Assembly (NCBI GenBank): GCA_017934175.1
Contig: JAGBKB010000061.1
Location: 1 to 64,000, forward strand
Reading direction: 5' to 3'
Origin: Lachnospiraceae bacterium
Lineage (GTDB): Bacteria; Bacillota; Clostridia; Lachnospirales; Lachnospiraceae
Length of the DNA stretch: 64,000 nt
In this document: in pieces, positions 33,387 through 63,228 of the stretch
Numbering within the stretch: the first letter of the stretch is position 1
Layout of the letters: each line of letters opens with the position of its first letter
Notes under the pieces: generated by a model
Told to the model about the DNA's origin: nothing
The model's input: only the letters and a program-made list of their open reading frames with translations
The model's database searches: none
Position numbers and translations under genes: made by a program

Positions 33387-33863
33387 ATGAGTATTTTAGC
33401 CGGAAAGAAAGTAGTCATCATTGGCGATCGTGATGGCGTACCAGGTCCCGCTATTGAGGCTTGTGCTAAATCTGCAGGTGCAGAAGTAGTATTTTCATCA
33501 ACAGAATGCTTCGTCTGAACAGCCGCAGGAGCAATGGATCTTGAGAACCAAAAGAGAGTAAAGGAATTCGCTGAAAAGTTTGGAGCAGAGAATGTAGTAG
33601 TACTTCTCGGAGCAGCAGAAGGTGAGGCATCAGGTCTCGCTGCTGAAACAGTTACAAACGGCGACCCTACTTATGCAGGTCCATTGACAGGAGTTCAGTT
33701 AGGACTCACAGTTTATCACGTATGTGAACCAGAAGTTAAGGCAGAATTTGATGCTGCAGTTTATGAAGATCAAGTTTCTATGATGGAAATGGTTCTTAAT
33801 GTTGATGATATTATAAAAGAAATGTCATCAATAAGATCTCAATACTGCAAATATTTAAAATAG
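33387..33863 (+). CDS. grdA: Glycine reductase selenoprotein A (Sec44)
   Basis: The gene reads through an in-frame TGA at 33516-33518 (codon 44), giving 158 residues. The context C-F-V-U-T-A-A-G-A-M-D is the GrdA redox motif C-x-x-U, and Sec44 is the position known in the family. The N-terminus ([17 protein letters not shown]) and the remaining sequence match GrdA. It carries the carboxymethyl-selenoether between components B and C. The start ATG has AAGGAGG seven bases upstream. By eye the hairpin after this TGA is weaker than those after grdB and the ABC permease. Confidence 0.97.
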
Positions 33864-37322: not shown

Positions 37323-38633
37323 ATGAGTAAATTAAGAGTGGTTCACTATATCAACCAATTTTTCGCTGGTATAGGTGGTGAAGAAAAAGCGGATACTCCT
37401 GCTGAATTAAGAGTAGGCGAAGTTTTAGGACCAGGAATGGCACTTAAAGCTAATTTTGGAGATAATGCTGAAATAGTTGCAACTATAATTTGTGGTGATT
37501 CATATTTCGCAGAGAATATGGATAAGGCAAAAGAGCAAATTATTGGTTGGGTTAAAGAGCAAAATCCAGATGTATTTATAGCAGGACCTGCATTTAATGC
37601 TGGTCGTTATGGTACAGCTTGTGGAGCAATTTGTGAAGCAGTTCAAAATAAATTAAACATCCCAGTTGTTACTGGTATGTATATTGAGAACCCAGGTGCA
37701 GACATGTATAAAAATAAGGTATATGTATTCCCTACAAAAGATAGTGCAGCTGGTATGAGAGAAGCAGCTCCAGTTCTTGCAAAGTTTGCATTGAAACTTG
37801 GAAATCATGAAAAGATAGGTTCTTCAAAAGTTGAAGGATTTATGGAAGGTAAGAGAATTAACTTCTTTGCTGAAAAGCGTGGTTCTGAAAGAGCTGTTGA
37901 AATGCTCCTTAAGAAAATTAAAGGAGAAAAGTTTGAGACTGAGTATCCAATGCCAGAATTTGATAAGGTACCACCAAATCCAGCAATTAAGGATATAACA
38001 AAAGCTACAATAGCTCTTTGTACTTCAGGTGGTATTGTACCAAAGGGAAACCCAGATCATATCGAGTCATCAAATGCACTTAAATATGGTGAATACGATA
38101 TAACTGGTGTTATGGAATTAACTTCTGATAAGTATGAGACAGCACATGGTGGTTATGACCCAGTATATGCAAATGAGAGACCAGATAGAGTTCTTCCAGT
38201 TGATGTTATGAGAGACCTTGAGAAAGAAGGAAAGATTGGAAAACTTCACAATAAATTCTATACTACTGTTGGTAATGGTACTGCAGTTGCATCTGCTAAA
38301 AAGTATGCTGCAGAATATGCACAAAAACTTAAAGCAGATGGAGTAGATGCTGTTATTATGACAAGTACATGAGGAACTTGTACACGTTGCGGTGCAACGA
38401 TGGTTAAAGAGATAGAGAGAGCAGGAATACCTGTAGTACATATGTGTACTATAACTCCTATATCACTTACAGTTGGTGCAAATAGAATCGTTCCAACTAT
38501 AGCAATTCCTCACCCACTTGGAAATCCAGCACTTGATAAAGCAGATGAAAAGAAACTTCGTCGTCAATTAGTTGAAAAAGCGCTTAATGCTCTTACAACT
38601 GAAGTTACTGGACAAACTGTTTTTGATAAATAA
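37323..38633 (+). CDS. grdB: Glycine reductase component B, selenoprotein GrdB (Sec350)
   Basis: The frame runs through TGA at 38370-38372 (codon 350) and ends at TAA 38631-38633, 436 residues. The context S-T-U-G-T-C-T-R-C-G is the known GrdB selenocysteine motif. Sequence on both sides matches GrdB, which binds glycine's alpha carbon and makes the Se-carboxymethyl intermediate with GrdE. A textbook bacterial SECIS hairpin follows the TGA. The operon ends with a strong terminator at 38670. Confidence 0.97.
38370..38399 (+). promoter_or_regulatory. UGA codon and bacterial SECIS hairpin of grdB
   Basis: After TGA (38370-38372) there is a perfect 6-bp stem, CGTTGC (38385-38390) and GCAACG (38394-38399), with a GGT loop. 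The loop starts 18 bases after the TGA and begins with G, as required for SelB binding. It serves as an internal reference for judging the permease UGA at 54840. Confidence 0.85.
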
Positions 38634-46082: not shown

Positions 46083-46172
46083 ATTTTAAAAATGCTTAAA
46101 GAAATGATATAAGGAAAAAAATGAAACTTATCTATGATGAAAATTGGCAATGCCAAAAAATTGGAGGAGATT

Positions 46173-47327
46173 ATGAAAACAAAAATTAATCCACTTATTA
46201 TTATTACTGGAATTATTATTGGTGTAGCGGCTGTTGCACTTACTGCATTTGGTAATCCTAAAAATATGGGATTTTGTATTGCTTGTTTTATAAGAGATAT
46301 TGCAGGAACTACTAAACTTCATTCAGCAGGAGTAGTTCAATATTTAAGACCTGAAATAGTTGGTATAGTATTAGGAGCATTTATAATGTCACTTGCTGGT
46401 GGAGAATGGAGAGCAAAAGCAGGTTCAAGCCCAGCATTAAGATTCATTCTTGGATTTATGGTTATGGTTGGTGCGCTTATATTCCTTGGTTGCCCACTTC
46501 GTATGGTTATAAGAATGGGAGGTGGAGATTTAAATGCATTTGTAGGACTTGCTGGATTTGTAGTTGGTATTTTAATTGGTGTAGTATTCCTTAAGAAAGG
46601 ATTTGGCTTAAAAAGAAATTATGATGTAGCAAATCTTGATGGAATGGTTTTACCAGTTGTTTTAGTAATATTATTTGTATTATTCTTTATGGCATGGCCA
46701 GCACTTTCTCAATATGTTGCAGATGTAAAAAATGGTGTTGAAGGTGCAAAGAATACAACTTCATTTGCAATATCAACTTCTGGTCCAGGATCTATGCATG
46801 CTCCAATATTTATGGCATTAGTTATTGGTTTAGTAGTTGGTGCACTTGCACAAAAATCAAGAATGTGTATGGTTGGCGGTATCCGTGATATAGTAATGTT
46901 TAAGAATTATAATTTAATTCTTGGATTTATTGGTGTATTTGTCGCAGTACTTGTTGGGAATATTGTTCTTGGCAATTTCAAAGGTTTTGCTACTCAAAGT
47001 CAACCAATAGCACACACTGATGAAATATGGAATTTCCTTGGTATGGTTATAGTTGGATGGGGCTCAGCACTTCTTGGTGGATGTCCACTTCGTCAACTTA
47101 TACTTGCAGGTGAAGGAAATGGCGATTCTGCTGTTACTGTTATAGGTATGCTTGTTGGCGCTGCATTTGCACATAACTTTGCTTTAGCAGGTGGGGCTGA
47201 CCCTGGTATGGTAGATGGAGCCTATAAAGCATTCAAATTAAGTGCAAACGGAAGACTTGCAGCAATATGTTGCTTAATAGCACTTCTTGTTATTTCTCTC
47301 ACTAACTTAAAAGGTGAAGAGAATTAA
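46173..47327 (+). CDS. yedE: YedE-family selenium transporter
   Basis: This 384-residue polytopic protein belongs to the YeeE/YedE family, selenium-linked branch. It has the paired motifs of the family: N-M-G-F-C-I-A-C-F near residue 32, L-G-C-P-L-R-M-V near residue 109 and L-G-G-C-P-L-R-Q-L near residue 299, with cysteines placed to pass thiol-reactive sulfur or selenium species. The start at 46173 has TTGGAGGAG nearby; an upstream in-frame ATG (46134) is within the leader. A small overlapping frame (46121-46189) with its own weak ribosome binding site could be a leader peptide. It probably imports a selenium compound for the enzymes encoded downstream. Confidence 0.87.
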   Translation: MKTKINPLIIITGIIIGVAAVALTAFGNPKNMGFCIACFIRDIAGTTKLHSAGVVQYLRPEIVGIVLGAFIMSLAGGEWRAKAGSSPALRFILGFMVMVGALIFLGCPLRMVIRMGGGDLNAFVGLAGFVVGILIGVVFLKKGFGLKRNYDVANLDGMVLPVVLVILFVLFFMAWPALSQYVADVKNGVEGAKNTTSFAISTSGPGSMHAPIFMALVIGLVVGALAQKSRMCMVGGIRDIVMFKNYNLILGFIGVFVAVLVGNIVLGNFKGFATQSQPIAHTDEIWNFLGMVIVGWGSALLGGCPLRQLILAGEGNGDSAVTVIGMLVGAAFAHNFALAGGADPGMVDGAYKAFKLSANGRLAAICCLIALLVISLTNLKGEEN

Positions 47328-48763: not shown

Positions 48764-49570
48764 GTGAGCAAATTTTATATTGGTATTGACATAGGTTCAA
48801 CCTCAGCGAAGACTGTGGTTCTCGATGAAAATAAAAATATCATTTCGAGAATTTTACTTCCTACAGGTTGGAGTAGTAAAGAAACCTCTGAAATCATTTT
48901 AAGAAAATTAAATGATTTAAATTTTGATATCGGAAACTCAACCATAGTCGCAACTGGCTATGGAAGGGTTTCCGTTTCTTTTGCAAATAAAGCAGTTACT
49001 GAAATTACATGCCATGGGAAAGGTGCGAATTATTTATTTGGAGCAAATGCAAAATCTATTGATGATAATGATTTAGGAGTTCTATCAAATAATTTATTAA
49101 TAATAGATATCGGTGGGCAGGACACAAAAATCATTCAAGTTGAAAATGGAAATGTGGTAGATTTCTTAATGAATGATAAGTGCTCTGCAGGTACTGGTAG
49201 ATTTCTTGAAGTTATGAGTAATGCTTTAAATCTCAAAATGGATGAATTATGTGATATGGCTGAAAAAGGTGCAGATACGCATATAAGTTCGCTTTGCACA
49301 GTATTTGCAGAATCTGAAGTAATATCACTTATAGGTAGAGGCGAGAAAAGAGAAAATATCGCATTTGCAATAGTTGATTCAATTGTTAAAAAAGTATGTC
49401 AGCAGGCTCAAAAATTATATAAAAAAGATATGAAAGTATGTTTGACTGGTGGACTTTCAGAATTTAAATATATAAGTGACTCATTAGGTAAAGAATTAAA
49501 AACTAAAGTGTATGCAAAAGAAGATGGAAGATATGCTGGAGCAATTGGTGCAGCACTTATGGGAATATAA
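48764..49570 (+). CDS. ATP-dependent activator of a 2-hydroxyacyl-CoA dehydratase-type enzyme (DccR-like)
   Basis: This 268-residue protein starts with Y-I-G-I-D-I-G-S-T-S-A-K-T, the ASKHA phosphate loop, and has D-I-G-G-Q-D-T-K near residue 123. Cys140 (K-C-S-A-G-T-G-R-F) and Cys178 (L-C-T-V-F-A-E-S-E-V) are the two ligands that let the dimer hold one [4Fe-4S] cluster. It hydrolyses ATP to push a single low-potential electron into its partner, encoded next. The start is a GTG (48764) with a weak ribosome binding site. A reductase role inside a selenium cluster is unusual. Confidence 0.9.
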   Translation: MSKFYIGIDIGSTSAKTVVLDENKNIISRILLPTGWSSKETSEIILRKLNDLNFDIGNSTIVATGYGRVSVSFANKAVTEITCHGKGANYLFGANAKSIDDNDLGVLSNNLLIIDIGGQDTKIIQVENGNVVDFLMNDKCSAGTGRFLEVMSNALNLKMDELCDMAEKGADTHISSLCTVFAESEVISLIGRGEKRENIAFAIVDSIVKKVCQQAQKLYKKDMKVCLTGGLSEFKYISDSLGKELKTKVYAKEDGRYAGAIGAALMGI

Positions 49571-49591
49571 AATAAAAGGAGAATAATAATT

Positions 49592-50866
49592 ATGGCAGAC
49601 AGACACGAAATGTGGAAATTACTTGGTATGAATATTGAGCAACACGATGTATTATGTTCAGTTCTTCCAGGTGCAGTAGGTGATGTATTTATGTCACAAA
49701 AAAATAGACCAAAGGGAATGGAATTCTGGGATATGGTAGTTGCTGATGTTCATGGAATTCGCCCAGCAGAATTGATTGAAGAACAAAAGAAAGGTAGAAA
49801 AGTATTTGGAACTTTTTGTGTATATGTTCCAGATGAAGTAATAATTGCTTGTAATGGTATTGTCACAGGACTTTGTGGTGGTTCACAGTTCTGGGTTCCA
49901 GATGGTGAGGCAGTTCTTCCAAAAAATACTTGCCCACTTATAAAGGCATCTGTAGGTGCAAGACTTGGAAAAACTTGCCCATTCTTTAGAATTGCTGATA
50001 TGTATGTTGGTGAGACTACTTGTGATGGCAAAAAGAAAGCATATGAGATTTTAGGTGAAGATGTACCTATGTATGTAATGGATGTTCCTCAAATGAAGAG
50101 ACCAGAAGATATAGAGAGATGGGCACATGAGATAGCACTATTTGCTAAGAAAGTTGAAGAATTTACTGGAGTAAAACTTACTGTAGAAAACTTAAAGAAT
50201 GCTATTCATATAGTTAATGAGAAGAGAAAAGCAATGCAAAGAGTTTATGACACAAGAAAGAATAAGACTCTTCCAATTTCAGGTAGAGATTCACTTCTTA
50301 TGACACAAATATCATTCTTTGATGACCCAGAGAGATGTGCAACAATGTGCAATAAACTTGCTGATGAATTAGAGCAAAGAGTAAAAGATAACGTATCAGT
50401 AGTTGATGCAGGAACAAAGAGAATACTTGTTACAGGAACTCCACTCGCTATTCCTAACTGGAAACTTCATAATATCATCGAGACTACAGGCGCTGTTGTT
50501 GTATGTGAAGAGATGTGTACAGGAACAAGATATTTTGAAAATCTTGTTGATGAAAATATTAATTCTCTTGAAGAAGGATTTAAAGCACTTGCAAATAGAT
50601 ATATGAAGACAAACTGTGCTTGCTTTACTCCAAATACTGGAAGAATTGATGATATAAAGAGAATGGTTAAAGAATATAATGTAGATGGAGTAATAGATTG
50701 CAATCTTAAGTTCTGTTGCCTCTATGATACAGAGAAATTTTCAGTTGGTCGCGCTCTTAAAGAAGCAAATATTCCAGTTTTACAACTTGAGACAGATTAT
50801 ACAGATACAGATGCAGAGCAATTAAGAACTCGTATTGGTGCATTTGTAGAGATGTTAAGTAAATAA
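49592..50866 (+). CDS. 2-hydroxyacyl-CoA dehydratase-family protein, double-cubane cluster type (DccP-like)
   Basis: This 424-residue single-subunit protein matches the HgdB/HgdC-fold family that does not need a second subunit. Conserved cysteines occur in N-T-C-P-L-I and K-T-C-P-F-F (first third), C-E-E-M-C-T-G (middle) and K-F-C375-C376-L-Y-D (last third). Close relatives carry an [8Fe-9S] double-cubane cluster and reduce small unreactive molecules with electrons from the activator. The substrate here is unknown; the location suggests an oxidised selenium or sulfur compound. A GGAGAA ribosome binding site precedes the ATG. Confidence 0.85.
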   Translation: MADRHEMWKLLGMNIEQHDVLCSVLPGAVGDVFMSQKNRPKGMEFWDMVVADVHGIRPAELIEEQKKGRKVFGTFCVYVPDEVIIACNGIVTGLCGGSQFWVPDGEAVLPKNTCPLIKASVGARLGKTCPFFRIADMYVGETTCDGKKKAYEILGEDVPMYVMDVPQMKRPEDIERWAHEIALFAKKVEEFTGVKLTVENLKNAIHIVNEKRKAMQRVYDTRKNKTLPISGRDSLLMTQISFFDDPERCATMCNKLADELEQRVKDNVSVVDAGTKRILVTGTPLAIPNWKLHNIIETTGAVVVCEEMCTGTRYFENLVDENINSLEEGFKALANRYMKTNCACFTPNTGRIDDIKRMVKEYNVDGVIDCNLKFCCLYDTEKFSVGRALKEANIPVLQLETDYTDTDAEQLRTRIGAFVEMLSK

Positions 50867-50873
50867 GAGATTT

Positions 50874-51146
50874 ATGGATAATTCGGAGTTTCACTATTAC
50901 ATAACATTTGATACATATGAAGAAGCAATGGCTATGCATGATGATTTGGATAAATCCTTAATTAACAATAAAATATCACCAGCGCCCCTTGACTTGGTCG
51001 AGGGGGTCTGCTGTGGTGTTTCATTAATGATAGAGCCAGAAGATAAAGAAAAAATTGAAAAATATTTAAATGAAACAAGTTTTAAATACTTAAGATTTGT
51101 AAAAGCAGAAAGAACTTTTAAACCTAAAAGAGATAGATATTGTTAA
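50874..51146 (+). CDS. DUF3343 protein, putative Se/S carrier
   Basis: This 90-residue protein starts with F-H-Y-Y-I-T-F-D-T-Y-E-E-A and has G-V-C46-C47-G-V-S-L-M, the DUF3343 core with its conserved cysteine. The family is commonly encoded next to selenium-trait genes and is thought to carry selenium or sulfur; no activity has been shown as far as I know. It begins 7 bases after the double-cubane gene and ends with basic residues and a C-terminal cysteine. Confidence 0.8.
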   Translation: MDNSEFHYYITFDTYEEAMAMHDDLDKSLINNKISPAPLDLVEGVCCGVSLMIEPEDKEKIEKYLNETSFKYLRFVKAERTFKPKRDRYC

Positions 51147-51172
51147 AAAAGAGTATGAGTGGAATCAGTTAA

Positions 51173-52150
51173 ATGGAATTACTAAAAGATATTATGATAA
51201 ATATATATCTAAATATGTATTCGTATACTTGTTATGTAATTATTGGGATAGTATTATACATTATAATTTACTTTTTAGCATGGAAATTAAACTTTAACAT
51301 TGCTGTATTAAAAGTAGTAATAACATTGCTTGCATTATTTTTACCAATATGTAGTTGTATATCTATTACTTTTCTATTGTATAAGAGAATAATTAAAGAT
51401 GAAAAGTTTGTATTGGTGATATATTTGATTAGCATCTTTTTCAACATTTCAGGGTTTTTATTTATATACTTGTATTTTGGGTCAATGGTGTTTAGCGTAT
51501 ATGTATTGGTCTTAGCACTTATTTTGATTATATTATATAAAGTTTTGAGTATAGTAGAAAAGAGTAAAAATAGACCTTCAAAATGTAATGATGAAATGTA
51601 TAAAAGTATATCTAATTTATACTATATATCTAATTTTATATTTATTCATTTTATATCTTTGGTAATTATGAGTGTTATAAATGCAGTGTTTATAAATGTT
51701 CAATATATTGATGTTGCTGGAACTAATATAAATTTATCAATTTTTATGTTTAATAATATAGTGCTTAATTATTTTTGTATTCCCAATGATATATTAAAAA
51801 TGAGTCAATATATGTATATAGGATATAGTGTTTCATTAATAATTCCTGTGATTTATATCGCAACTATAATGAATCTACCTGATTTTTTATTAATAATTAC
51901 ACAGTTTAAATGTAAATTATTTTATTTTATAGCGACATTGTTGACCAGCATTGTGATAGGTATAGTTTTTTATATTTTTGATAGTAATGATATGATTAGT
52001 AAAACTAGTATTTGCTATAATGATAACTTGTGTAAATGGGCAAGTATATTGAATGTTAATCCTGGTAACTATATAAGAATCATATCAATTATTATATATA
52101 TATTATTATTGTTATATTATTCACAAAAAAAAGGAGAGTTAAAGTTATGA
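51173..52150 (+). CDS. Polytopic membrane protein, distant ArsP/UPF0718-like
   Basis: This 325-residue protein has about nine hydrophobic segments. In the second third of its first half it has F-L-P-I-C60-S-C62-I, very like the I-P-I-C-S-C-G motif of the UPF0718 permease at 56095, although the following P-L-G-x-S is missing. It may be a diverged permease from the same superfamily. Its TGA stop overlaps the ATG of the lipoprotein gene (ATGA), so the two are translationally coupled. No close family is recognised; it is probably part of the transport system. Confidence 0.6.
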   Translation: MELLKDIMINIYLNMYSYTCYVIIGIVLYIIIYFLAWKLNFNIAVLKVVITLLALFLPICSCISITFLLYKRIIKDEKFVLVIYLISIFFNISGFLFIYLYFGSMVFSVYVLVLALILIILYKVLSIVEKSKNRPSKCNDEMYKSISNLYYISNFIFIHFISLVIMSVINAVFINVQYIDVAGTNINLSIFMFNNIVLNYFCIPNDILKMSQYMYIGYSVSLIIPVIYIATIMNLPDFLLIITQFKCKLFYFIATLLTSIVIGIVFYIFDSNDMISKTSICYNDNLCKWASILNVNPGNYIRIISIIIYILLLLYYSQKKGELKL

Positions 52151-53448
52151 AAAGTAGAGTTTTATCAATTTGTTTAGTATTAAGTATGTCTTTAATGTTG
52201 TTTTCTTGTGGAGATAGTGGTAGTCAAACAGCAATCAAACAGGATACTGCTAATGTAAACCCACTTGCAAAAACACCTTATAGCGAAGGCCCTGATACTA
52301 TTGAAAATATAGTAAAAAAATTAGTATCAGGCTATAATCTTCCAGAATTAAGTGAAGAAGATAAAAATTATGAAATTAATATGGGATACTATAACTGTGA
52401 TCATATGACAGCAGGACCTATAGGTGAGTTTGCTGGCATCTATAAGGCACTTGGAATGAATGTAAAACTTACTGGAAATGCAAATGTGCCAGCAGCGATG
52501 CAAGCAGGTCAAATGGATATAGCATATTGTGGTTGGACAACAACTTTATCAGCAGTTCAAAAAGGTGTTCCACTTTTTATCGCTGCAGAGAATCATATAG
52601 GTGGTGCAGAATATTTGGTAGTGCGCAAGGGAATTGATATGAGCAATCCAGAAAATTTATATGGTAAATCAGTGTCATTTGGAACTGATCCAGAGACAAC
52701 TAATTTAAACTGGGCAGAGTGGACAACAAAACTTGGACTTGATAGAGATTCAAGTAAGTATGAAGGTGTAGCCATGAAAGATGCTGAAGAGTATACTGCT
52801 ATGAAAGCAGGACACCTTGATGCATATATATGCTGCGACCCTTGGGGAACTATGGCACAATATTCAAATGGTAAAGATATAGATTCAGTAGGAAATATTA
52901 TTATAAGACAAGATACAGATAGAACTAAAGATGGTTTGGGACATGGAACCTGTTGCAAAGTGGCTATGAATTATAATTTTGCAAAAGAACATCCAAGGCT
53001 TGCAGAAAGATTATTACTTGCTCATACTATAACTTTGCAGTTCTGTTATGAACATCCATATTTTGCCTCACTTGGATTTTCAGCATATTACAATGTTCCA
53101 GTGAAAGTTGCACTTGAAAACTTCTGGAGAAAATTTGTAAATGAAGGAAGAACCTTAAGATGGGATTTAAATGTCGATTATATGAGAAATCAACTTAATA
53201 CTATGAAACATTATGGTATAAGAGATGATATAAATACAGTAAATGTTGAAGATTATGTTGATTTACAATATTTTAATAATAGTGGTGCTATAGATTTTGA
53301 AGATTTTATAAAGAAAAATATAGACCCAGTATTTCCAGAGACTCAAGACTGGGAAACATACAATAAAGTAGCACTTGCTATAGATGGAATTAATGAAAGT
53401 GATATTCCTGAATATGTTACACTTGATGATTTGAAATTAATAAAATAA
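52147..53448 (+). CDS. saoX: ABC transporter substrate-binding lipoprotein (SaoX-like)
   Basis: This 433-residue protein has a lipoprotein signal (hydrophobic run, then L-M-L-F-S-C) and an SsuA/NMT1-type binding domain: I-N-M-G-Y-Y-N-C-D-H near residue 78, A-G-Q-M-D-I-A-Y-C near residue 120. Vicinal cysteines C229-C230 (I-C-C-D-P-W-G) and C269-C270 (G-T-C-C-K-V) are unusual for this fold and could bind a soft metal or thiol-reactive ligand. It opens a run of transport genes. The name reflects my recollection of the Sao families; the ligand is not known. Confidence 0.75.
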   Translation: MKSRVLSICLVLSMSLMLFSCGDSGSQTAIKQDTANVNPLAKTPYSEGPDTIENIVKKLVSGYNLPELSEEDKNYEINMGYYNCDHMTAGPIGEFAGIYKALGMNVKLTGNANVPAAMQAGQMDIAYCGWTTTLSAVQKGVPLFIAAENHIGGAEYLVVRKGIDMSNPENLYGKSVSFGTDPETTNLNWAEWTTKLGLDRDSSKYEGVAMKDAEEYTAMKAGHLDAYICCDPWGTMAQYSNGKDIDSVGNIIIRQDTDRTKDGLGHGTCCKVAMNYNFAKEHPRLAERLLLAHTITLQFCYEHPYFASLGFSAYYNVPVKVALENFWRKFVNEGRTLRWDLNVDYMRNQLNTMKHYGIRDDINTVNVEDYVDLQYFNNSGAIDFEDFIKKNIDPVFPETQDWETYNKVALAIDGINESDIPEYVTLDDLKLIK

Positions 53449-53469
53449 AAATTAGATTATTCATAAAAC

Positions 53470-54267
53470 TTGATGATGAAAATAAAAAATAGTTTATTTG
53501 TTATTGCTTTTTTGCTATTAATTTTATTTTGTTATAAGATAAATAATGATAATAAAAGCAGTGAAATTAGGATAGCTTATACTAATGATTTATCAGGATT
53601 TATATTTAAAGATATAGAAAATGATAAGAATAGTGGTCTTGACTTTAAAGAATATAAATTTATGGACTTGGGAGATTGTTGTGGTTCAAATGCACAATTT
53701 GCATTTGCAACAAATCAAATTGACTTAGCAATTCTTTGTCCAGATGCCATTAATTATTTAGATGAAGTAGATAATAATAATTACATATCAATTGGCAATG
53801 TAATATATGATAGTGAAATACTTATAAGTGAAAAAGATAAGGCCAGTATTAAAGTTGTAGGATATATGAATAGAAGGGAAAGGCAGAGAGAGATACTTAG
53901 CAGTTATTTTGAAGATAATGTGTCGTTTGTGCCTATGACCCCATTATCACTTGGTTATGCACTAAAATCTAATGTTATTGATGCTGCATATGTAGATATA
54001 AGTACTTATTTGCAACTTGATTATGATGGAGTGACGCTTACAAATGACAATGCAACACAAACAATTGTAATAAATAAAAAAGTAATGAATAGTGATAAGA
54101 TAAAGAAAATCATAACACTGTATAATGAAAAGGTAAGGCAAATTAAAAATGAAGATGAATTATATGATTTTTTATCTAAACATTTAAGACTAAATAATAA
54201 AGAGGCGGTATTAAAAAAATGGAGAGACCAAAAAACAAAATTTGGGATGTTAAGGCAAGAAGATTAG
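53470..54267 (+). CDS. saoB: Second substrate-binding-like protein, membrane anchored (SaoB-like)
   Basis: This protein of about 265 residues has an N-terminal membrane helix (F-V-I-A-F-L-L-L-I-L-F) and a small periplasmic-binding-type domain: I-R-I-A-Y-T-N-D-L-S-G, then F-A-T-N-Q-I-D-L-A-I-L. The vicinal pair C70-C71 in G-D-C-C-G-S-N sits where ligand-binding loops lie. The start is ambiguous: TTG 53470 or the ATGs at 53473 and 53476; none has a strong ribosome binding site. It overlaps the permease gene by 49 bases. It probably cooperates with the lipoprotein SaoX-like and the permease. Confidence 0.7.
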   Translation: MMMKIKNSLFVIAFLLLILFCYKINNDNKSSEIRIAYTNDLSGFIFKDIENDKNSGLDFKEYKFMDLGDCCGSNAQFAFATNQIDLAILCPDAINYLDEVDNNNYISIGNVIYDSEILISEKDKASIKVVGYMNRRERQREILSSYFEDNVSFVPMTPLSLGYALKSNVIDAAYVDISTYLQLDYDGVTLTNDNATQTIVINKKVMNSDKIKKIITLYNEKVRQIKNEDELYDFLSKHLRLNNKEAVLKKWRDQKTKFGMLRQED

Positions 54268-55028
54268 AACTTGTTAATGACACATATCTTGGGTATATAG
54301 TTTTGATGATTTTATGTGCCATTTGGTTTTTTGCATCTAAAAATATAAAAAGTGAATTGATTTTACCAAGTTTTGAAAAAACTGCAGTAGAATTTTTAAC
54401 TGGGTGGACAAATAAAAGAGTAATGACAAACTTTTGGATAACACTTAAAAGAGTGTTATTAGGTGTTGGTTATGCAATAGTAGTAGGAACAATAATTGGA
54501 ATTGGAATGGGTTATTCAAAAAAAGTATATAATGCATTATCGCCTATAATCAATTCAATAAGACAAATACCTATTATGACTTGGGTTCCACTTTCAATAA
54601 TATGGTTTGGACTTGGTGAGGGTCCCACAATATTTTTGATATTTATGAGTGCAGTATTTCCACTTACTATCAATGTAATTGATGGTGTGGCAAATATTGA
54701 TCAAAATCTTGTGTATGCATCAAGAAGTATGGGAGCATCATTATCAGATATTATAAGAGATATAATATTACCAGGAGCATTTCCATCATTCTTGACAGGT
54801 GTTAGACTTGCAATAGGTGGAGGTTGGCAAAGTGTAATATGAGCGGAGTTCATTGCCACGTCAAGTGGCATAGGTTTTATCATGGTAGAAGCACAAAATA
54901 GACTTAATACATCTACATTGTATGCTCTCATGATAATGGCGGCAATTATTGGTTTTGCTATTGATCAAGTTTTAAGAGTGGTAGAGAGAAGTCTTACAAG
55001 ATGGAGATATAAAGATGGAGTGTCTTAA
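54219..55028 (+). CDS. saoP: ABC transporter permease with an in-frame UGA, probable selenoprotein (Sec208; SaoP-like)
   Basis: The frame from ATG 54219 reaches TGA at 54840-54842 (codon 208) and continues for 61 codons to TAA at 55026-55028, 269 residues, the normal length of SsuC/TauC-type permeases. The part before the TGA has the permease loop E-x3-D-G-V-A region and ends G-G-W-Q-S-V-I; the part after begins A-E-F-I-A-T-S-S-G-I-G-F, exactly the conserved continuation of the EAA-family permeases, with a last helix and basic tail. Sec replaces the residue just before A-E, which is normally a small or hydrophobic one. A SECIS-like hairpin follows the TGA. Reading to 55028 overlaps saoA (start 55015), giving normal coupling; stopping at 54842 would not. 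Confidence 0.85.
54840..54870 (+). promoter_or_regulatory. UGA codon with SECIS-like hairpin in the permease gene
   Basis: TGA at 54840-54842 is followed by a perfect 6-bp stem, TGCCAC (54854-54859) and GTGGCA (54865-54870), with a five-base loop GTCAA. The loop begins 17 bases after the TGA and starts with G. In grdB the corresponding stem is also 6 bp and the loop starts after 18 bases with G. This agreement supports selenocysteine insertion. Confidence 0.75.
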
Positions 55029-55818
55029 AATTGATAATATTACAAAAGTATATAAAGGCAACAAAAAAGAACCTGACAAGATAGTATTAAAAGACATATC
55101 TTTTTCAATAAATGAAGGAGAGTTTGTATGCTTACTTGGACCATCAGGTTGTGGGAAGACTACACTCTTAACTATGATGGGTGGTTTTTTGGAACCAACA
55201 TCTGGCAAAATATTACTTGATGGTAATGAAATTAAAGGGCCTGGAAGTGAAAGAGGATATGTATTTCAAAATTATGCTTTGTTTCCTTGGATGACAGTTA
55301 AAGAAAATATAGCTTATGGATTAAAATTCAGCACTAAAACTAAAGAAGAAAAAGAAGAACGAGTTAAATATCTGATAAATATGGCACGATTAAATGGAAA
55401 TGAAAAAAAGTTTCCAATTCAGTTATCGGGAGGAATGCAACAAAGAGTTGCTGTAGCAAGAGCACTTGCAGGGTTCCCAAGAGTATTACTTCTTGATGAA
55501 CCACTTGGTGCAATAGATTTTCAGATGAGAGAATTACTTCAAAATGAACTTGATCAGATGGTTCAAGAAGCACATATAACTGCAGTTATGGTAACTCATG
55601 ATGTGTCTGAATCTGTGTTTATGAGTGATAGAGTTATAGTTCTTGGAAATAACCATGGACATATAGTTTCAGACTACAAAATAGATTTACCAAGAAGAAG
55701 AGATAGAGAAAGTGAAGAGTTTAAAAAATGTGTTACTGAACTTACATCACTTGTAAGAATTGCATTTAATGAAAATATCACAGCTGGAGAAGCATGTATT
55801 ATGAAAAGGAGAAAATAA
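55015..55818 (+). CDS. saoA: ABC transporter ATP-binding protein (SaoA-like)
   Basis: This 267-residue ATPase has Walker A G-P-S-G-C-G-K-T-T near residue 42, Q-loop F-Q-N-Y-A-L-F-P-W near residue 83, signature L-S-G-G-M-Q-Q-R near residue 138, Walker B V-L-L-L-D-E-P near residue 157 and the H-loop histidine (V-T-H-D). It is most like the SsuB/TauB group of nitrate, sulfonate and taurine importers. It powers the permease whose gene end overlaps its start by 14 bases. Confidence 0.88.
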   Translation: MECLKIDNITKVYKGNKKEPDKIVLKDISFSINEGEFVCLLGPSGCGKTTLLTMMGGFLEPTSGKILLDGNEIKGPGSERGYVFQNYALFPWMTVKENIAYGLKFSTKTKEEKEERVKYLINMARLNGNEKKFPIQLSGGMQQRVAVARALAGFPRVLLLDEPLGAIDFQMRELLQNELDQMVQEAHITAVMVTHDVSESVFMSDRVIVLGNNHGHIVSDYKIDLPRRRDRESEEFKKCVTELTSLVRIAFNENITAGEACIMKRRK

Positions 55819-55819
55819 T

Positions 55820-56083
55820 ATGAAACATCCATGTATTGAATTTATTATTGCTTGCTCATGTTGTCAAATTTATAATGAGTTTGTAAAAGAACTTGCAAAA
55901 GATTATCCAAATGTTGAAACTAAAATATATGTTGCAGGAGAGGATTTTGATTACATACCAAAATATGGTGCATTATCAAGTACAATACTTGTAATTAACG
56001 AAAAAGAAAAAATTACTGATATATCTAAAACTACAATAAGGGCAGCATTTGAAAAAGCAAATGAGAGTGCAAAAGTAGAATAG
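55820..56083 (+). CDS. saoT: Small thioredoxin-like protein with CSCC motif (SaoT-like)
   Basis: This 87-residue protein has a short thioredoxin-like fold with I-I-A-C12-S-C14-C15 near the start, so a C-x-x-C pair plus an extra cysteine, and S-S-T-I-L-V-I-N in the strand where thioredoxins have the cis-proline neighbourhood. Homologues that I recall as SaoT can have Sec at the active site; here all three positions are cysteine. It starts one base after saoA and likely reduces the cargo or partner thiols in the cytoplasm. Confidence 0.75.
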   Translation: MKHPCIEFIIACSCCQIYNEFVKELAKDYPNVETKIYVAGEDFDYIPKYGALSSTILVINEKEKITDISKTTIRAAFEKANESAKVE

Positions 56084-56094
56084 ATAGGGTTTAT

Positions 56095-57174
56095 ATGAAT
56101 GAAGTTTTAGATTTTTTGAAAAGTGTTTTTATTACTGCTTGGAGTTTTTTAAATTCGGCTTCATGCTATATAGTGATATCGTTTGTAATAGCAGGAATAA
56201 TTCATGAATTTGTAGGAATTGAGCAGATGAAAAAATTTGCTATAGGAACTACCAAAATATCTGGGATTGTAGCAACAACTGTAATTGGAATGATTATACC
56301 TATATGTAGTTGTGGAACTATCCCACTTGGTATAAGTATGTATTATAGTGGAGCATACTTGGGACCAGTACTAACCTTTATGACTTCGTCTCCGATGATA
56401 AATCCTATAGCATTAGTACTTTCATATGGCTTACTTGGAAAGGAGATAGCAACGATTTATCTTATAACAGGATTTGTAGCACCATTTTTAATTGGAATTA
56501 TAGCAAATAAATTTGCTGGACCAGAATTATATTATAAACCTGCTTATGAAAATGCAAATAAACAAATTCAATTAGAAAAAGAGAAGAAAAGTTTTTTTTC
56601 AAAAATTAAAAGTGGTTTGCATTGGTCATTTTTTGAGTTATCAGTAGTTATAAGTAAATTTACAGTTTCTGGTATGCTTATAGCAGGAATATTATTTTCA
56701 GTTGTGCCACAAACGATGATACAGAGATACCTTGGAAATCCAGGAGCAATTTCACTTCTTGGTATAACTGTAGTTGCTTGTCTTATGTATGTCTGTGCAG
56801 TTGGTCACATACCATTTATAGCAGCCATTGTAGCAAGTGGAGCAGCGCCTGGAGTTGCTATAACTTTTCTTATGGCTGGATGTGCTACAAATATTGCAGA
56901 GTTATTATCAATACGAAAACTAATAGGTAAAAGAGCAGTAATATTATATGCAACTTCAGTTATATTATTGTCAGAAATTGTAGGGTATATTACAAATTTG
57001 CTGTTACCAAATTTTAAACCAGTACTTAGGTATGATAATATTACCCACAGCATTTCATATGCAAATAAATTTATAATAGAGTTTCCAACAGCACTTAAGT
57101 ATAGTTGCAGTATATTACTAATTTTTTATTCACTAATATCTTTATATCGTTATTTAAAAAAGAAAAAATATTAG
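56095..57174 (+). CDS. saoE: Efflux permease of the ArsP/UPF0718 family (SaoE-like)
   Basis: This 359-residue protein has eight to ten membrane helices. The first half has I-I-P-I-C71-S-C73-G-T-I-P-L-G, and the second half has C-A-V-G-H-I-P-F-I-A-A-I-V and M-A-G-C-A-T-N, the paired motifs of the DUF318/UPF0718 permeases. ArsP, a member, exports trivalent organoarsenicals through a cysteine pair, so a thiol-reactive organic or metalloid cargo is plausible. It lies 11 bases after the thioredoxin-like gene, within the same operon. Confidence 0.8.
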   Translation: MNEVLDFLKSVFITAWSFLNSASCYIVISFVIAGIIHEFVGIEQMKKFAIGTTKISGIVATTVIGMIIPICSCGTIPLGISMYYSGAYLGPVLTFMTSSPMINPIALVLSYGLLGKEIATIYLITGFVAPFLIGIIANKFAGPELYYKPAYENANKQIQLEKEKKSFFSKIKSGLHWSFFELSVVISKFTVSGMLIAGILFSVVPQTMIQRYLGNPGAISLLGITVVACLMYVCAVGHIPFIAAIVASGAAPGVAITFLMAGCATNIAELLSIRKLIGKRAVILYATSVILLSEIVGYITNLLLPNFKPVLRYDNITHSISYANKFIIEFPTALKYSCSILLIFYSLISLYRYLKKKKY

Positions 57175-57220
57175 CATAGTTATAGTAAGTTTTACGAGTT
57201 ATTTAGTTTAAGAGAGTTAT

Positions 57221-57763
57221 GTGGAATTAATATATAGGAATGTTTTATCACTAAAAAAAATGATGAATAAAAAAACATTAAAAATAATTATAATATTTAT
57301 ATTAATTATTGCAGGAATTTTTGCTCTTAGTCATTTAAGAAAATATTTGAATGTAACAACAAAAAATTATTTACGTGATGTTGAAACATTTGCAAAACCT
57401 GTGAGTGAAGAGAATAACTTACTTAAAGAGTTTAAAAGATTATTTAGTGAAAGAATAGTTATACTGGCCTGTGAAGAAGATATAAATAATGATAATAGAA
57501 AAGATATAGTGGTTATTTCAAAATTAAATGACGATATATCAACTATAGCATTACTTGATATGGGTGAGGAGTTTAAAACTACTGAACCAATACCTGCTCC
57601 AAGAGAAAATCAATATATGAAATTTTTTAATATGGATAATGAAGGTGCTATTGAGATTTTAATTACTGGAGAAAAAAAAGGTCAGGTTGGTTATGCTATT
57701 TATAAATATGAAGATGGAAAACTCATAGATATATTTGGTGAAGGTATGGAAGATTGTTGTTAA
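57221..57763 (+). CDS. saoC: Membrane-anchored protein with C-terminal Cys-Cys (SaoC-like)
   Basis: This protein has one N-terminal membrane helix (about residues 22-40, counting from the GTG at 57221) and an exported domain with D-I-N-N-D-N-R-K-D-I-V-V-I and N-M-D-N-E-G-A-I-E-I-L, which resemble FG-GAP-like repeats. It ends exactly in E-D-C179-C180 at the stop codon. A terminal Cys-Cys (or Cys-Sec) is the mark of a family I recall as 'Cys-Cys-COOH (seleno)protein SaoC'. The start is uncertain; ATGs at 57260 and 57263 also fit, but ribosome binding sites are weak. It probably binds a soft metal outside the membrane. Confidence 0.7.
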   Translation: MELIYRNVLSLKKMMNKKTLKIIIIFILIIAGIFALSHLRKYLNVTTKNYLRDVETFAKPVSEENNLLKEFKRLFSERIVILACEEDINNDNRKDIVVISKLNDDISTIALLDMGEEFKTTEPIPAPRENQYMKFFNMDNEGAIEILITGEKKGQVGYAIYKYEDGKLIDIFGEGMEDCC

Positions 57764-57882
57764 TTATAAGGGTGAGTTTAAATGTTTCTTGTCTTTTGTA
57801 GAATGATTTATATGTATCTAAATAATTTTTTGAATCTCAAAAGTCTACAGAAACTTTTATGAACCCTAAAAATAAATTAAAA

Positions 57883-57921
57883 GGAGGAGTATAGTTTTAA
57901 GCTATACAAAAAAAAAAGAAA
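57883..57921 (+). promoter_or_regulatory. Ribosome binding site separated from its start codon by a hairpin (gene at 57921)
   Basis: GGAGG at 57883-57887 is 33 bases from the ATG at 57921. Between them GTATAG (57889-57894) and CTATAC (57902-57907) form a hairpin. With the hairpin folded, 14 bases remain. No nearer ribosome binding site exists. The same design, also with 14 residual bases, occurs at 61211. Confidence 0.55.
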
Positions 57922-58253
57922 TGAAAGTAGCTTATTTAATGGAATCAGAACATGCAAGAGAGATATTGGAAAATATGATTATCCCTCAACTTGAAAAAGG
58001 GACACATGTTGCAGAAGTAGTAGGAATGATGTTCTTCTTTGACAATTGTTATATGTTAGTTGAAGGGAATGATATTGCTAACCGCTTAGCAAAAATTGCA
58101 GAGAAAACAGGTATGCTTCTTATGGCATGTGATAGATGCTGTATTTTAAGAGAAATTGATAAGAAATTAGTTTCTCCAGCAGGAATAGGATGTTTCCCAA
58201 ATGTATATCAAGCACTAAGTGGTGTAGGTGTTGACCAAGTTATAACATTATAA
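57921..58253 (+). CDS. saoD: DsrE-related protein (SaoD-like)
   Basis: This 110-residue protein has a DsrE/DsrF-like fold: V-A-Y-L-M-E-S at the start, M-F-F-F-D-N-C-Y-M near residue 38 and M-A-C70-D-R-C73-C74 near the place of the active cysteine in DsrE-type sulfur carriers, then P-A-G-I-G-C-F-P-N. Such proteins pass persulfide or perselenide groups. It follows the Cys-Cys-COOH gene after 157 bases, with a hairpin-controlled ribosome binding site. Confidence 0.72.
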   Translation: MKVAYLMESEHAREILENMIIPQLEKGTHVAEVVGMMFFFDNCYMLVEGNDIANRLAKIAEKTGMLLMACDRCCILREIDKKLVSPAGIGCFPNVYQALSGVGVDQVITL

Positions 58254-58312
58254 TCGTAGATTAGAGTTTGGTAAATTATAATGTTGAGTAATAAAGGTAC
58301 ATTAATAGAGTA

Positions 58313-60328: not shown

Positions 60329-60384
60329 AGGATTATATGGTGTCAGAGCCATATAGTCCTTTGAAAGGAGACTATATACATCTT
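60329..60384 (+). promoter_or_regulatory. Structured element and ribosome binding site before the second ABC cassette
   Basis: A 12-bp hairpin (60329-60340 with 60349-60360, one G-U pair, loop of eight) directly precedes AAAGGAG (60364-60370). Its 3' strand (AGTCCTTT) could alternatively pair with that ribosome binding site (AAAGG-AGACT), so two exclusive folds are possible. The start used downstream is TTG at 60384, 13 bases after AAAGGAG. Confidence 0.45.
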
Positions 60385-61172
60385 TGAACGATTTTATATT
60401 AAAAAACATTTCATTTTCATATCCTAATTCAGATAAGTTAGTGATTGACAATATAAGTACAAATATAAGTAATGGTGAATTTGTGTGTGTCCTTGGAAAA
60501 TCTGGATGTGGGAAAAGCACCTTACTTAAACTTTTTGCAGGACTCAATATTCCAAGTAAAGGTGAGTTGTTATTTGAAGATAATATAATAAAATCAGCAA
60601 GTCTTGATAGGGGAGTAGTATTCCAAGACTATGGGTTATTCCCTTGGATGACTGCTGGTGAAAATATTATGCTCGCTTTAAAGCAAAGATATAGAAATAG
60701 AAATGTGAATGAACTAAAAGAAATTGCTATTGATTCACTTAAGCAAGTAGGACTTGATGATAAAGTCTATAATACTTTACCAAAATATTTATCTGGTGGT
60801 ATGCAACAAAGAGTTGCGATTGCACAGGTTTTAAGTGTAAATCCAAAAGTATTTCTTATGGATGAGCCATTTGGTGCTCTTGATGCAGTTACAAGGGCAA
60901 AACTTCAAGATTTGATTTTAGAACTTTGGAATAAAAATGAAGTTAAAAAGACAGTAATATTTATAACTCATGATGTAGATGAAGCAATATATCTTGCAAA
61001 TAGAATAATAGTGCTCGGACAATCACCAAGTAAAATAATATATGATAAAAAAATTAGCCTAAATGAAAAAACAAGCAGAGAAAACTTGTATACTGATGAA
61101 AAAATGATGCTGCTTAGGAATGAATTAATACAAATTATCAATAAAGATATAAGTGAAAAGACATTGATGTAA
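60384..61172 (+). CDS. ABC transporter ATP-binding protein, second cassette
   Basis: This 262-residue ATPase has G-K-S-G-C-G-K-S-T near residue 39, F-Q-D-Y-G-L-F-P-W near residue 80, L-S-G-G-M-Q-Q-R near residue 137, V-F-L-M-D-E-P near residue 156 and I-T-H-D-V-D-E-A. It belongs to the SsuB/TauB group like the ATPase at 55015 but is clearly a separate paralogue. TTG at 60384 is chosen as start from the ribosome binding site. It is followed by its own binding protein and permease, making a complete importer. Confidence 0.86.
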   Translation: MNDFILKNISFSYPNSDKLVIDNISTNISNGEFVCVLGKSGCGKSTLLKLFAGLNIPSKGELLFEDNIIKSASLDRGVVFQDYGLFPWMTAGENIMLALKQRYRNRNVNELKEIAIDSLKQVGLDDKVYNTLPKYLSGGMQQRVAIAQVLSVNPKVFLMDEPFGALDAVTRAKLQDLILELWNKNEVKKTVIFITHDVDEAIYLANRIIVLGQSPSKIIYDKKISLNEKTSRENLYTDEKMMLLRNELIQIINKDISEKTLM

Positions 61173-61210
61173 GATTATAAGCATAAAATGCATATAATAA
61201 TAAAAATAAA

Positions 61211-61257
61211 GGAGGAATATAATCAACAATACATAAGTTGATTATGCTAAAAAGATA
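61211..61257 (+). promoter_or_regulatory. Ribosome binding site separated from its start codon by a hairpin (gene at 61257)
   Basis: GGAGG at 61211-61215 is 41 bases from the ATG at 61257. A perfect 9-bp hairpin (61219-61227 with 61237-61245, nine-base loop) lies between them. Folding leaves 14 bases, as for the gene at 57921. Confidence 0.55.
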
Positions 61258-62342
61258 TGAAAAAGTTATTATTCGTAAGTATTTGTTTAGCAATGCTTAC
61301 AACTGCATGTGGTAGTAAGACAACACCAGTTGCAGAGAAACCAGTTGAAACAACAGTTGCTACTGAAACAAAAAAGGAAAATACAGTAGTTCGCTGGAAC
61401 TATGGTTCAAGTGGAAATGTACTTGTAACTATTGCAGAAGAAAAAGGTTATTTCGATGAAGTTGGTATAACTATTAAACCAGTTGCAGCCACAGCAGTTT
61501 TAAATGCACTTGGACTTTTATCAGCAAATCAAGTTGATATAGTTTCAAATGCCGGAACAAGTAATCCACTTCAACAAATAGCAGCAGGAAATGATTTTAC
61601 TATATTTGGTGGACATATGGTAAATGGTGCTATGCCAGTAGTAGCAAAAAAAGGAACAGAGTGGAAGGGTGTAGAAAGTTTAGTTGGAGAAAAAGTTGCT
61701 ATAAATCCAAGTTACTTTGCATTCCCAGGTGCACTTATGGAAAAAGGTTATGATGACCCACTTCATCAAGTAGAATGGGTTACCTTTGGTACATATGATG
61801 ATGCACTTGCTGCTGTACAAAGAGGAGAAGTTAAGTATGCTCTTATGGGAACAGAAAAGAATTATCCATTATCACAAATGGATGATATAGAGATAGTATC
61901 ATGGCATAGTGAAGTTATGCCAAACTATAGTTGTTGCCGTATGGAGTGCCAAACAAGTTATCTTAAAGAAAATCCTGATGTTATAAAGAGAATTATAAAA
62001 GCACTTCTTAGAGCACAAAGTTATTATGAGACTCATAAAGATGAAGCAATCACACTTCATGCTGCAAAGATTAAAGCCGAGCCAGAATTCGTGGCTGCAT
62101 ATATGAATAATGAACATTATCTTGTATCAGCAGACCCACTTAGAAATCAAGTAAAGAGGGCTTGGGGTATCCTTGACAAAACTGGATTTTTAGATGCAAA
62201 TGCAAAAAACATCAATATTGATGAGCATATAAATACCTCAATATATGAGGAAGCACTTAAAGAAGCAAAATCTGAATATGGTTCAGAGAATCCAACTTTT
62301 TACGAAAAGATGGAAAAATTCTTTAATGAAAATGACAGATAA
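61257..62342 (+). CDS. ABC transporter substrate-binding lipoprotein, second cassette
   Basis: This 361-residue protein has a lipoprotein signal ending L-T-T-A-C-G and an NMT1/SsuA-type binding domain: V-V-R-W-N-Y-G-S-S-G near residue 44, A-N-Q-V-D-I-V-S-N near residue 93 and A-A-V-Q-R-G-E-V-K-Y. It carries the vicinal pair C226-C227 (N-Y-S-C-C-R-M-E) followed by another cysteine, as in the SaoX-like lipoprotein, which suggests a related ligand. Its ribosome binding site is set apart by a hairpin. It is probably anchored outside the membrane and serves the permease at 62470. Confidence 0.85.
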   Translation: MKKLLFVSICLAMLTTACGSKTTPVAEKPVETTVATETKKENTVVRWNYGSSGNVLVTIAEEKGYFDEVGITIKPVAATAVLNALGLLSANQVDIVSNAGTSNPLQQIAAGNDFTIFGGHMVNGAMPVVAKKGTEWKGVESLVGEKVAINPSYFAFPGALMEKGYDDPLHQVEWVTFGTYDDALAAVQRGEVKYALMGTEKNYPLSQMDDIEIVSWHSEVMPNYSCCRMECQTSYLKENPDVIKRIIKALLRAQSYYETHKDEAITLHAAKIKAEPEFVAAYMNNEHYLVSADPLRNQVKRAWGILDKTGFLDANAKNINIDEHINTSIYEEALKEAKSEYGSENPTFYEKMEKFFNENDR

Positions 62343-62357
62343 GATTTTTTCATAAAA

Positions 62358-62431
62358 GAGATTTCTTATGAAATCTCAACTCCAAAAAATGTTGGTTAAG
62401 GTATAAGGCAAGTCCTTATACCTTGGTCAAC
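62358..62431 (+). promoter_or_regulatory. Two hairpins between binding-protein and permease genes
   Basis: The first is an 8-bp perfect hairpin (62358-62365 with 62370-62377). The second is an 11-bp perfect stem (62398-62408 with 62414-62424), extended by a 3x3 internal loop and a further 4 bp (62391-62394 with 62428-62431). Neither is followed by a T run, so these are more likely mRNA-stabilising or processing elements that raise the level of the binding protein over the permease. Confidence 0.55.
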
Positions 62432-62469
62432 AGATTTGATAAAAAAATAATTTATGGAAGATAAAACAA

Positions 62470-63228
62470 ATGAACAAAGTTAGAAATAATGTAATCAAAT
62501 ATAGTATTACAGTTTTTATATTTTTGTTATTGATATTTATTTATTATTATACAACTGAAAATAATATTGCTAATCCATACTTTTTTCCAAAAATTAGTAA
62601 GATAATGAAAGCATTTAATGATAGTAAAGACCAGATGTTAGAAAATCTTATTGCTTCTTTTAAACTTGTAATTCCATCAATATTTGTTTCGTTGATAGTT
62701 GGCATAGGAATAGGAACAATTATGGGACTTAATGAGTGGGTTAGAGATTCATTACACCCTATTATTTATGCGTTTTCAGTAATACCTTCAATTTTGTTAT
62801 CACCATTTGTATTGTTTTTATCACCAAATATTACTATAGCATCAATAATTCTTATAGTATACAATACTTTATGGGCAACTCTTTTTGCAACAATTACTGG
62901 TATAATGACTATTGATAAAAGATATCTTGATAAGTCAAAAACACTGCAATTAAATGGTTTTAAAAAGTTTTTTAGAGTTATTCTTCCTGCCGCAAGTCCA
63001 TCAATAGTGGCTGGGTTTATTAATTCTTTAAGAAGTACCTTTGTTATGCTTGTCTTTGCAGAGATGTATGGTGCACAAAGTGGTATGGGTTATTTTGTAC
63101 GTATAAACTCTGAATATGGATTGTATGACAAAGTATGGTGTGGCTTTATATTTTTAGTGATTGTACTTGTTATAGTTATGCAATTATTTGAATTATTAAA
63201 AAAATATATTTTAAGATGGACAATGTAG
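62470..63228 (+). CDS. ABC transporter permease, second cassette
   Basis: This 252-residue SsuC/TauC-type permease has about six helices and the cytoplasmic EAA-type loop (Y-L-D-K-S-K-T-L-Q-L-N-G, then P-A-A-S-P-S-I-V-A-G). After it comes M-L-V-F-A-E-M-Y-G-A-Q-S-G-M-G-Y, which aligns with the segment holding the UGA in the first permease; here that position is Phe and the frame is uninterrupted. It forms an importer with the genes at 60384 and 61257. Confidence 0.87.
   Translation: MNKVRNNVIKYSITVFIFLLLIFIYYYTTENNIANPYFFPKISKIMKAFNDSKDQMLENLIASFKLVIPSIFVSLIVGIGIGTIMGLNEWVRDSLHPIIYAFSVIPSILLSPFVLFLSPNITIASIILIVYNTLWATLFATITGIMTIDKRYLDKSKTLQLNGFKKFFRVILPAASPSIVAGFINSLRSTFVMLVFAEMYGAQSGMGYFVRINSEYGLYDKVWCGFIFLVIVLVIVMQLFELLKKYILRWTM

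Follow-up and report, generated by a model that had tools for sequence, protein, structure and literature searches.

In a 64,000-nucleotide stretch of DNA from a Lachnospiraceae bacterium (positions 1 to 64,000 of contig JAGBKB010000061.1, GenBank assembly GCA_017934175.1), here called the window, the ATP-binding cassette (ABC) importer permease gene saoP is interrupted by an in-frame TGA. The locus raises the question of whether this codon ends the protein or is decoded as selenocysteine (Sec) and, if it is decoded, how Sec came to stand in a membrane permease and what it might do there. Very probably the gene is the saoP of an SAO-type ABC importer operon, with its UGA, codon 208, decoded as Sec with the help of a predicted hairpin; this reading draws on family, operon, alignment column and hairpin, which are observed here together with their conservation. 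The SAO ("Sec-assisted organometallic") operon is described in an excerpt of the 2026 review PMC13188914, citing Haft & Gwadz (2023, J Bacteriol 205:e0025922), as having six selenoprotein genes.

The saoP gene and its in-frame TGA

The features in question are the following.

54219..55028, + strand: saoP, ABC importer permease, 269 residues with UGA read as Sec (NF040733 335.1 bits, cut-off 295; PF00528; translation)
54840..54842, + strand: in-frame TGA, codon 208 of saoP, likely selenocysteine (homolog column; TGA in other genomes)
54854..54870, + strand: likely selenocysteine insertion sequence (SECIS) hairpin, TGCCAC-GTCAA-GTGGCA (shuffle score; conserved 5-bp core; SECIS limits as printed in the excerpt of PMC13188914)

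The sole internal stop of the frame 54219-55028 is the TGA at 54840-54842, within ...GWQSVI-TGA-AEFIATSSG..., after which 61 sense codons run to a TAA at 55026-55028, 14 bases inside the next open reading frame (ORF; start 55015). A previous reading of the window made from its letters (the sequence-only reading) had described the TGA at codon 208, the 61-codon continuation and the 14-base overlap with the next gene, and each is present in the sequence. The peptide predicted across the site is WQSVI-Sec-AEFIATSSGIGFIM. Model NF040733 (SaoP; model name ABC_perm_U) scores the protein at 335.1 bits with TGA read as U and at 328.9 bits in a genome scan. The gene had also been called an SsuC/TauC-type permease. 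The broad type holds, with 160.8 bits to PRK10160 and 132.3 bits to PRK11365, but both scores fall far below the cut-offs of 342 and 347, and the family is SaoP.

Statements on homologs refer to the best 120 of 242. Column 208 is reached by 108 of these, of which 107 have Cys there and one, P0051, has Phe. The other 12 are too short. Eleven of them stop after residue 207, at 85-100% identity to the window, and include its own product (P0001); P0024 (177 aa) likewise falls short of the column. In alignment A1 the TGA of the window occupies the column before A-E-F-I-A, where the remaining 54 rows all have Cys. Cys or Sec before A-E-F-I-A is a mark of membership that we drew from the alignment ourselves, and the window carries it. 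Aligning homologous permeases was a check proposed in the sequence-only reading, and it returns Cys, never Trp, at this column.

Scans with NF040733 of 299, 391, 344 and 398 genomes (overlapping samples of larger groups, each including G000, the assembly of the window) gave 4, 4, 3 and 9 matches over cut-off. The sampled scans found 19 distinct genomes with SaoP, a count of those found rather than of every one existing, with TGA at column 208 in 12 and TGT or TGC in 7; three weaker relatives, under the NF040733 cut-off, have Gly or Ala. Within the genus, whose members include the uncultured Clostridiales isolates RUG816 and RUG14839, 3 of 12 genomes have a SaoP protein match, and the same saoP TGA occurs in three assemblies. 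The genus relatives with saoP are designated G006 and G010. The saoP of G006 is 98.6% identical to that of the window over 708 bases of DNA. Against the 90%-identical G010 relative, nonsynonymous over synonymous divergence (dN/dS) is 0.060/1.01 before the TGA and 0.036/0.56 after it; on this substitution pattern, the frame downstream of the TGA is under purifying selection.

A hairpin downstream of the UGA

The stem TGCCAC/GTGGCA begins at the 12th base past the TGA, with 54854-54859 pairing to 54865-54870, and its loop, GTCAA, starts 17 nt after the UGA. The sequence-only reading had reported a stem with a G-first loop at this distance, and we confirm it. The hairpin lies within all the limits for bacterial SECIS elements printed in the excerpt of PMC13188914: its loop is 5 nt (limits 3-9 nt), its stem 6 bp (4-16 bp), its loop opens with G (G in the first two loop positions), its spacing is 17 nt (16-37 nt) and its energy -11.0 kcal/mol (<= -7.5 kcal/mol). 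Rare codons occur in or beside the hairpin (GCG 3.8%, GCC 4.5%, ACG 2.5% and GGC 8.6% of the codons for their amino acids in 38 window genes). Six of the nine hairpin codons have G or C in third position, a count equaled in 12 of 14137 nine-codon segments of the 38 genes, saoP's included.

The score applied here, chosen after the hairpin was seen, takes an uninterrupted stem whose loop has G in its first two positions. Synonymous shuffles equaled the score in 0 of 1000 trials for the window, 7 of 1000 for G010 and 2 of 1000 for G006, and in 7 Cys loci it was matched by 48-653 of 1000. Folding energy is a weaker measure: 59 of 5000 recodings did as well, as did 8 of 200 dinucleotide shuffles (z = -2.0). 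A 6-bp stem by itself means little, because a looser count that admits G-U pairs and any loop base gives a stem of at least 6 in 3319 of 5000 recodings. In the window clade the loop starts 17 nt after the TGA, whereas seven of the nine distant Sec loci have it at 25 nt; the 25-nt register alone is a weak mark, since two Cys loci, L062 and L063, also have a stem there.

A separate pattern lies one codon after the TGA, where GAG-TTC (54846-54851) is shared by 10 of the 12 Sec loci and by none of the 7 Cys loci. The SECIS region may be under constraint, or the loci may have the two codons by descent.

Signs of selenocysteine decoding in the genome

Other genes of known Sec families in the window contain in-frame TGA codons.

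33516..33518, + strand: in-frame TGA of grdA, glycine reductase selenoprotein A (NF040748 280.7 bits, cut-off 130)
38370..38410, + strand: in-frame TGA and SECIS of grdB (RF01990 64 bits at 38373-38410; TIGR01917 712.9 bits, cut-off 602.2)

The grdB stem, CGTTGC/GCAACG with loop GGT, starts at the 13th base after the TGA at 38370, and Rfam SECIS_4 matches there; the sequence-only reading had placed this 6-bp stem correctly. The selD of the same genome (L105 1501-2415, which is C2:28381-29295) is over its cut-off and has an in-frame TGA in SCSGG-U-AAK. Together with grdA and grdB, selD brings to three the other genes in the assembly that belong to known Sec families and carry an in-frame TGA. 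Genes for selB and tRNA-Sec are each present in 10 of 12 genus genomes, and selA and selB were verified on a 6.4-kb contig of the close genome G006.

TGA codons with long open stretches on both sides number four on the + strand of the window, namely those of grdA, grdB and saoP and one at 13844. At the last, one ORF (HEPN) ends and a second follows in frame with it. On the - strand, a short ORF at 3795-4271 with Pfam HTH_38 ends in TGA and is followed by 39 more open codons with no Pfam match; it is probably a decayed mobile-element gene and not a selenoprotein.

Weighing the readings of the codon

Several observations speak against decoding as Sec. G000 has no SelB over cut-off, its best tRNA-Sec scores 41.2 bits against a gathering score of 47, and the selA-selB contig of G006 has only three short matches (27-68 bases) in G000. 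No Rfam SECIS model matched the saoP hairpin at E up to 10. The outermost T-A pair of the stem is lost in both relatives (ATT to ATA), and conservation of the hairpin codons between the window and G010 alone is not significant (7 of 9 identical, P = 0.27; core 5 of 5, P = 0.09). The hairpin score is weak in the 9 distant Sec loci, where 11-1000 of 1000 shuffles are as good and L051 has no qualifying stem. Shuffle counts are low in the window clade but reach 1000 of 1000 in distant Sec loci, so the strength of the hairpin test is confined to this clade and does not extend to Sec forms at large. Two refuting conditions set in the sequence-only reading were checked, and both outcomes favor its interpretation: homologs carry Cys, and not Trp, at the column, and the 5-bp core of the hairpin is identical in the three genomes (window, G010, G006), although the outermost pair is not kept. 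As for a SECIS check, the region fits the printed limits but not an Rfam model. Many bacterial SECIS elements are unlike one another, according to the excerpt of PMC13188914. As for selB and tRNA-Sec, a missing contig would be the simplest reading of their absence from G000. Such a gap in the assembly is favored because the saoP of G006 is 98.6% identical and G000 is estimated to be 95% complete; the explanation fits, short of proof.

Were the TGA a true stop, saoP would be a recent pseudogene or would encode a functional, truncated permease of 207 residues. A 207-aa product is indeed what both mechanical ORF calling and the protein database yield, and the shortfall of selB and tRNA-Sec in the window's assembly would suit a stop; yet the frame past the TGA is conserved across a dS of about 0.56 with a dN of 0.036, the same TGA recurs in 12 of 19 SaoP genomes, and truncation would remove the last helix (231-259 in the model). 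We regard a true stop as very improbable, and the pseudogene is rejected on the purifying selection past the TGA. Scarcely credible is that UGA is read as another amino acid, such as Trp by a recoded or suppressor tRNA, or that the TGA is a sequencing error. A Trp codon is only one base away, but Trp occurs in none of the 108 homologs that reach the column, the TGA is identical in three genus assemblies, and in-frame TGAs are not scattered, since three of the four on the + strand are those of grdA, grdB and saoP and the one at 13844 is an ORF end. The same absence of Trp leaves a TGG-to-TGA mutation, named in the sequence-only reading as the main alternative, without support, and we reject it. 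Decoding of codon 208 as Sec is the reading followed below.

The SAO operon of the window

The genes around saoP, with their scores, are listed here.

46134..47327, + strand: YedE-type putative selenium transporter, upstream of the SAO genes (TIGR04112 469.4 bits, cut-off 200)
52147..53448, + strand: saoX, substrate-binding subunit, no in-frame TGA (NF040735 402 bits, cut-off 300)
53470..54267, + strand: saoB, second substrate-binding subunit, no in-frame TGA, overlaps the saoP start (NF040727 191.7 bits at 53497-54267, cut-off 140)
55015..55818, + strand: saoA-like ATPase, overlaps the saoP end by 14 bases (NF040729 356.2 bits, just under the cut-off of 360)
55820..56083, + strand: saoT, thioredoxin-like, Cys form (NF040730 103.6 bits, cut-off 65)
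56095..57174, + strand: saoE, efflux transporter, Pfam ArsP_1 (NF040736 513.3 bits, cut-off 325; PF03773)
57221..57763, + strand: saoC, with a Cys-Cys C-terminal end (NF040734 148.9 bits, cut-off 80; translation)
57921..58253, + strand: saoD, DsrE-related (NF040732 182.7 bits, cut-off 169)

Membership in the SAO system is thus scored over cut-off for saoX, saoB, saoP, saoT, saoE, saoC and saoD, with saoA at 356.2 against 360, and the SAO genes are found together again in relatives. Of the adjoining SAO genes, saoB is the faster diverging, with 68.8% identity to its G010 counterpart against about 90% for saoX, saoP and saoA. The operon contigs of the window, G010 and G006 have saoP as the sole SAO subunit with an in-frame TGA. 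In 6 of 9 other Sec-SaoP stretches (L081, L082, L083, L084, L087 and L089) saoT has a TGA also, as does saoB in L084 and L089, and each saoT or saoB TGA sits at a Cys of the window's protein; the stop in saoX of L084 is a TAA near its end. Six Cys-SaoP stretches have no in-frame TGA in any SAO gene. Sec in SaoP alone was considered as a hallmark of the window clade and dropped, since L085, L086 and L088 have no TGA elsewhere (in L086, saoT and saoB were not found).

SaoL, a MerB-like lyase, gave no match in G000, G006 and G010 (assemblies 95, 83 and 82% complete). Among the other Sec-SaoP genomes, 8 of 9 have a match over cut-off, as does 1 of the 6 Cys-SaoP genomes, counts that exclude G783. 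The "organometallic" reading of the SAO system would be weaker in the window clade, because SaoL, its natural enzyme, was not found in the three clade genomes.

Upstream there are also a cysteine desulfurase family protein, an acyl-CoA dehydratase activase and a double-cubane-cluster reductase; reductase and activase (48764-50866) are found again beside the SAO operon in several relatives, whether these have the Sec or the Cys form. Just before saoX, at 51173-52150, is an ORF of 325 residues, hydrophobic by eye and with no Pfam or NCBIfam match, whose G010 counterpart is only 46.7% identical against 81-95% for three adjoining genes. A second ABC set (ATPase, binding protein, permease) at 60384-63228 is weakly SaoX- and SaoP-like (29.6 and 75.2 bits), and its permease, L002, has Phe at the SaoP Sec column. 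A phage origin was considered and set aside, as 51000-58300 had no match in the phage collection by megablast, the only search used.

Origin and possible role of Sec208

The tree of SaoP has 76 rows, made up of 55 of the 108 full-length homologs after thinning, the window, and 20 loci; the 53 homologs thinned out include P0051 (Phe), and L017, near-identical to the window, was omitted. The pair formed by the window and G010 is nested in a set of 7 Cys and 2 Sec rows (support 100/99) and in a wider set of 11 Cys and 2 Sec rows (support 95/92). A single clade of all 11 Sec rows is rejected (approximately unbiased test, p-AU 5.2e-05), in a test that counts two Cys rows among the deep Sec rows too. 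A narrower test, which grouped the window pair with just the five Sec rows nearest to it, gave a marginal rejection (p-AU 0.044). The better reading of these sequences, probable though not proven, is that the window lineage switched from Cys to Sec independently of other Sec-SaoP lineages, and in a system without SaoL, because the clade sits within Cys forms in the tree, the register of its hairpin differs from that of most distant Sec forms and SaoL was not found. We reject recombination between the C-terminal part and a Sec form as well: residues 209-269 match the Cys form P0010 at 47 of 61 positions and the Sec form L045 at 29 of 57.

Residue 208 lies, in the predicted fold, near one end of the long helix 175-213, and the last helix is 231-259. 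By family topology, we take the residue-208 end of helix 175-213 to be the periplasmic one. SelB, binding the hairpin, would insert Sec where the family has a nearly invariant Cys, and the residue would be close to the point where the binding proteins SaoX and SaoB hand over cargo. If SaoP forms a homodimer like NrtB, two selenolates would stand at the outer mouth, and the pair would serve not in redox catalysis but in binding a soft metal, metalloid or organochalcogen cargo and handing it onward. The sequence-only reading had suggested direct contact of Sec with a soft-metal or selenium cargo. That Sec208 binds soft cargo as a ligand, close to where the channel opens outward, is a tentative proposal, a little short of an even call, with the cargo deduced from the operon only; if true, selenium would be used as a transport grip, rather than as a redox catalyst. 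Doubtful is the fuller account, in which Cys became Sec more than once at a transmembrane, non-redox position of an importer, here with a new SECIS of its own, the selenolate pair grips soft-metal or selenium cargo better than thiolates would, and the cargo, for want of SaoL, is imported or scavenged intact. Literature on NrtB/CmpB or importer gates had nothing, among the matches listed, that places the residue at the channel lining.

Both the origin and the role have a rival account. Sec might be ancestral in SaoP, with the Cys forms around the window clade being repeated losses and no independent gain having occurred. The deep branches of the SaoP tree do include Sec rows, with Cys rows interspersed, and the GAG-TTC shared by most Sec loci and by no Cys locus could be inherited. 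The nesting of the window pair in both mixed sets, however, would demand those repeated losses, and the hairpin register differs, at 17 nt against 25 nt in 7 of 9 distant Sec loci, although this is a weak mark with L062 and L063, both Cys, also at 25 nt. We consider an ancestral Sec unlikely, and prefer an independent switch. As to role, Sec208 may be real but serve redox regulation or protein structure, for example as a thiol switch within the helix, and not cargo binding. Such a use is conceivable, if rather improbable: 41 of 62 Cys rows have a second Cys at column 195 in the same helix, and saoT is thioredoxin-like, but Cys195 occurs in 0 of 11 Sec rows, so that the partner would be lacking in Sec forms. 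The link between Sec208 and the lack of Cys195 is beyond statistical testing, because there are only 3 independent pairs.

Comparison with known systems

The excerpt of PMC13188914 lists "ABC transporter permease subunit SaoP, NF040733" among prokaryotic selenoproteins. SaoP is therefore already a listed selenoprotein family, and the claim that it is a selenoprotein is not new. A term search of PMC12013277 found no mention of SaoP, and the literature matches listed held no further paper on SaoP or the SAO system beyond PMC13188914. What our analysis suggests in addition is a likely independent change to Sec, together with the hairpin register and the missing SaoL. It independently supports the view that selenoproteins can include a membrane permease that lacks the usual C-x-x-U redox context, and it offers a single gene for comparing a likely switch from Cys to Sec with the formation of a SECIS hairpin. 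A practical consequence is that database copies of the window's saoP protein stop at residue 207.

Among related permeases, NrtB and CmpB (PDB 8w9m and 9u9z, named as nitrate and bicarbonate transporters) have Ala at the aligned column, and TauC and SsuC share only the broad type. The closest full-length Cys-form SaoP among the homologs listed, P0010, is 66% identical to the window and of the same family, with Cys at the column where the window has UGA; the Cys forms differ in that the hairpin score is matched in their 7 loci by at least 48 of 1000 shuffles. Like the published SAO system and its SaoP, the gene of the window passes the family cut-off, keeps the same operon partners and has a predicted Sec in the permease subunit, whereas its clade differs in that SaoL was not found (three genomes), in a hairpin register other than that of most distant Sec loci, and in its position nested among Cys forms.
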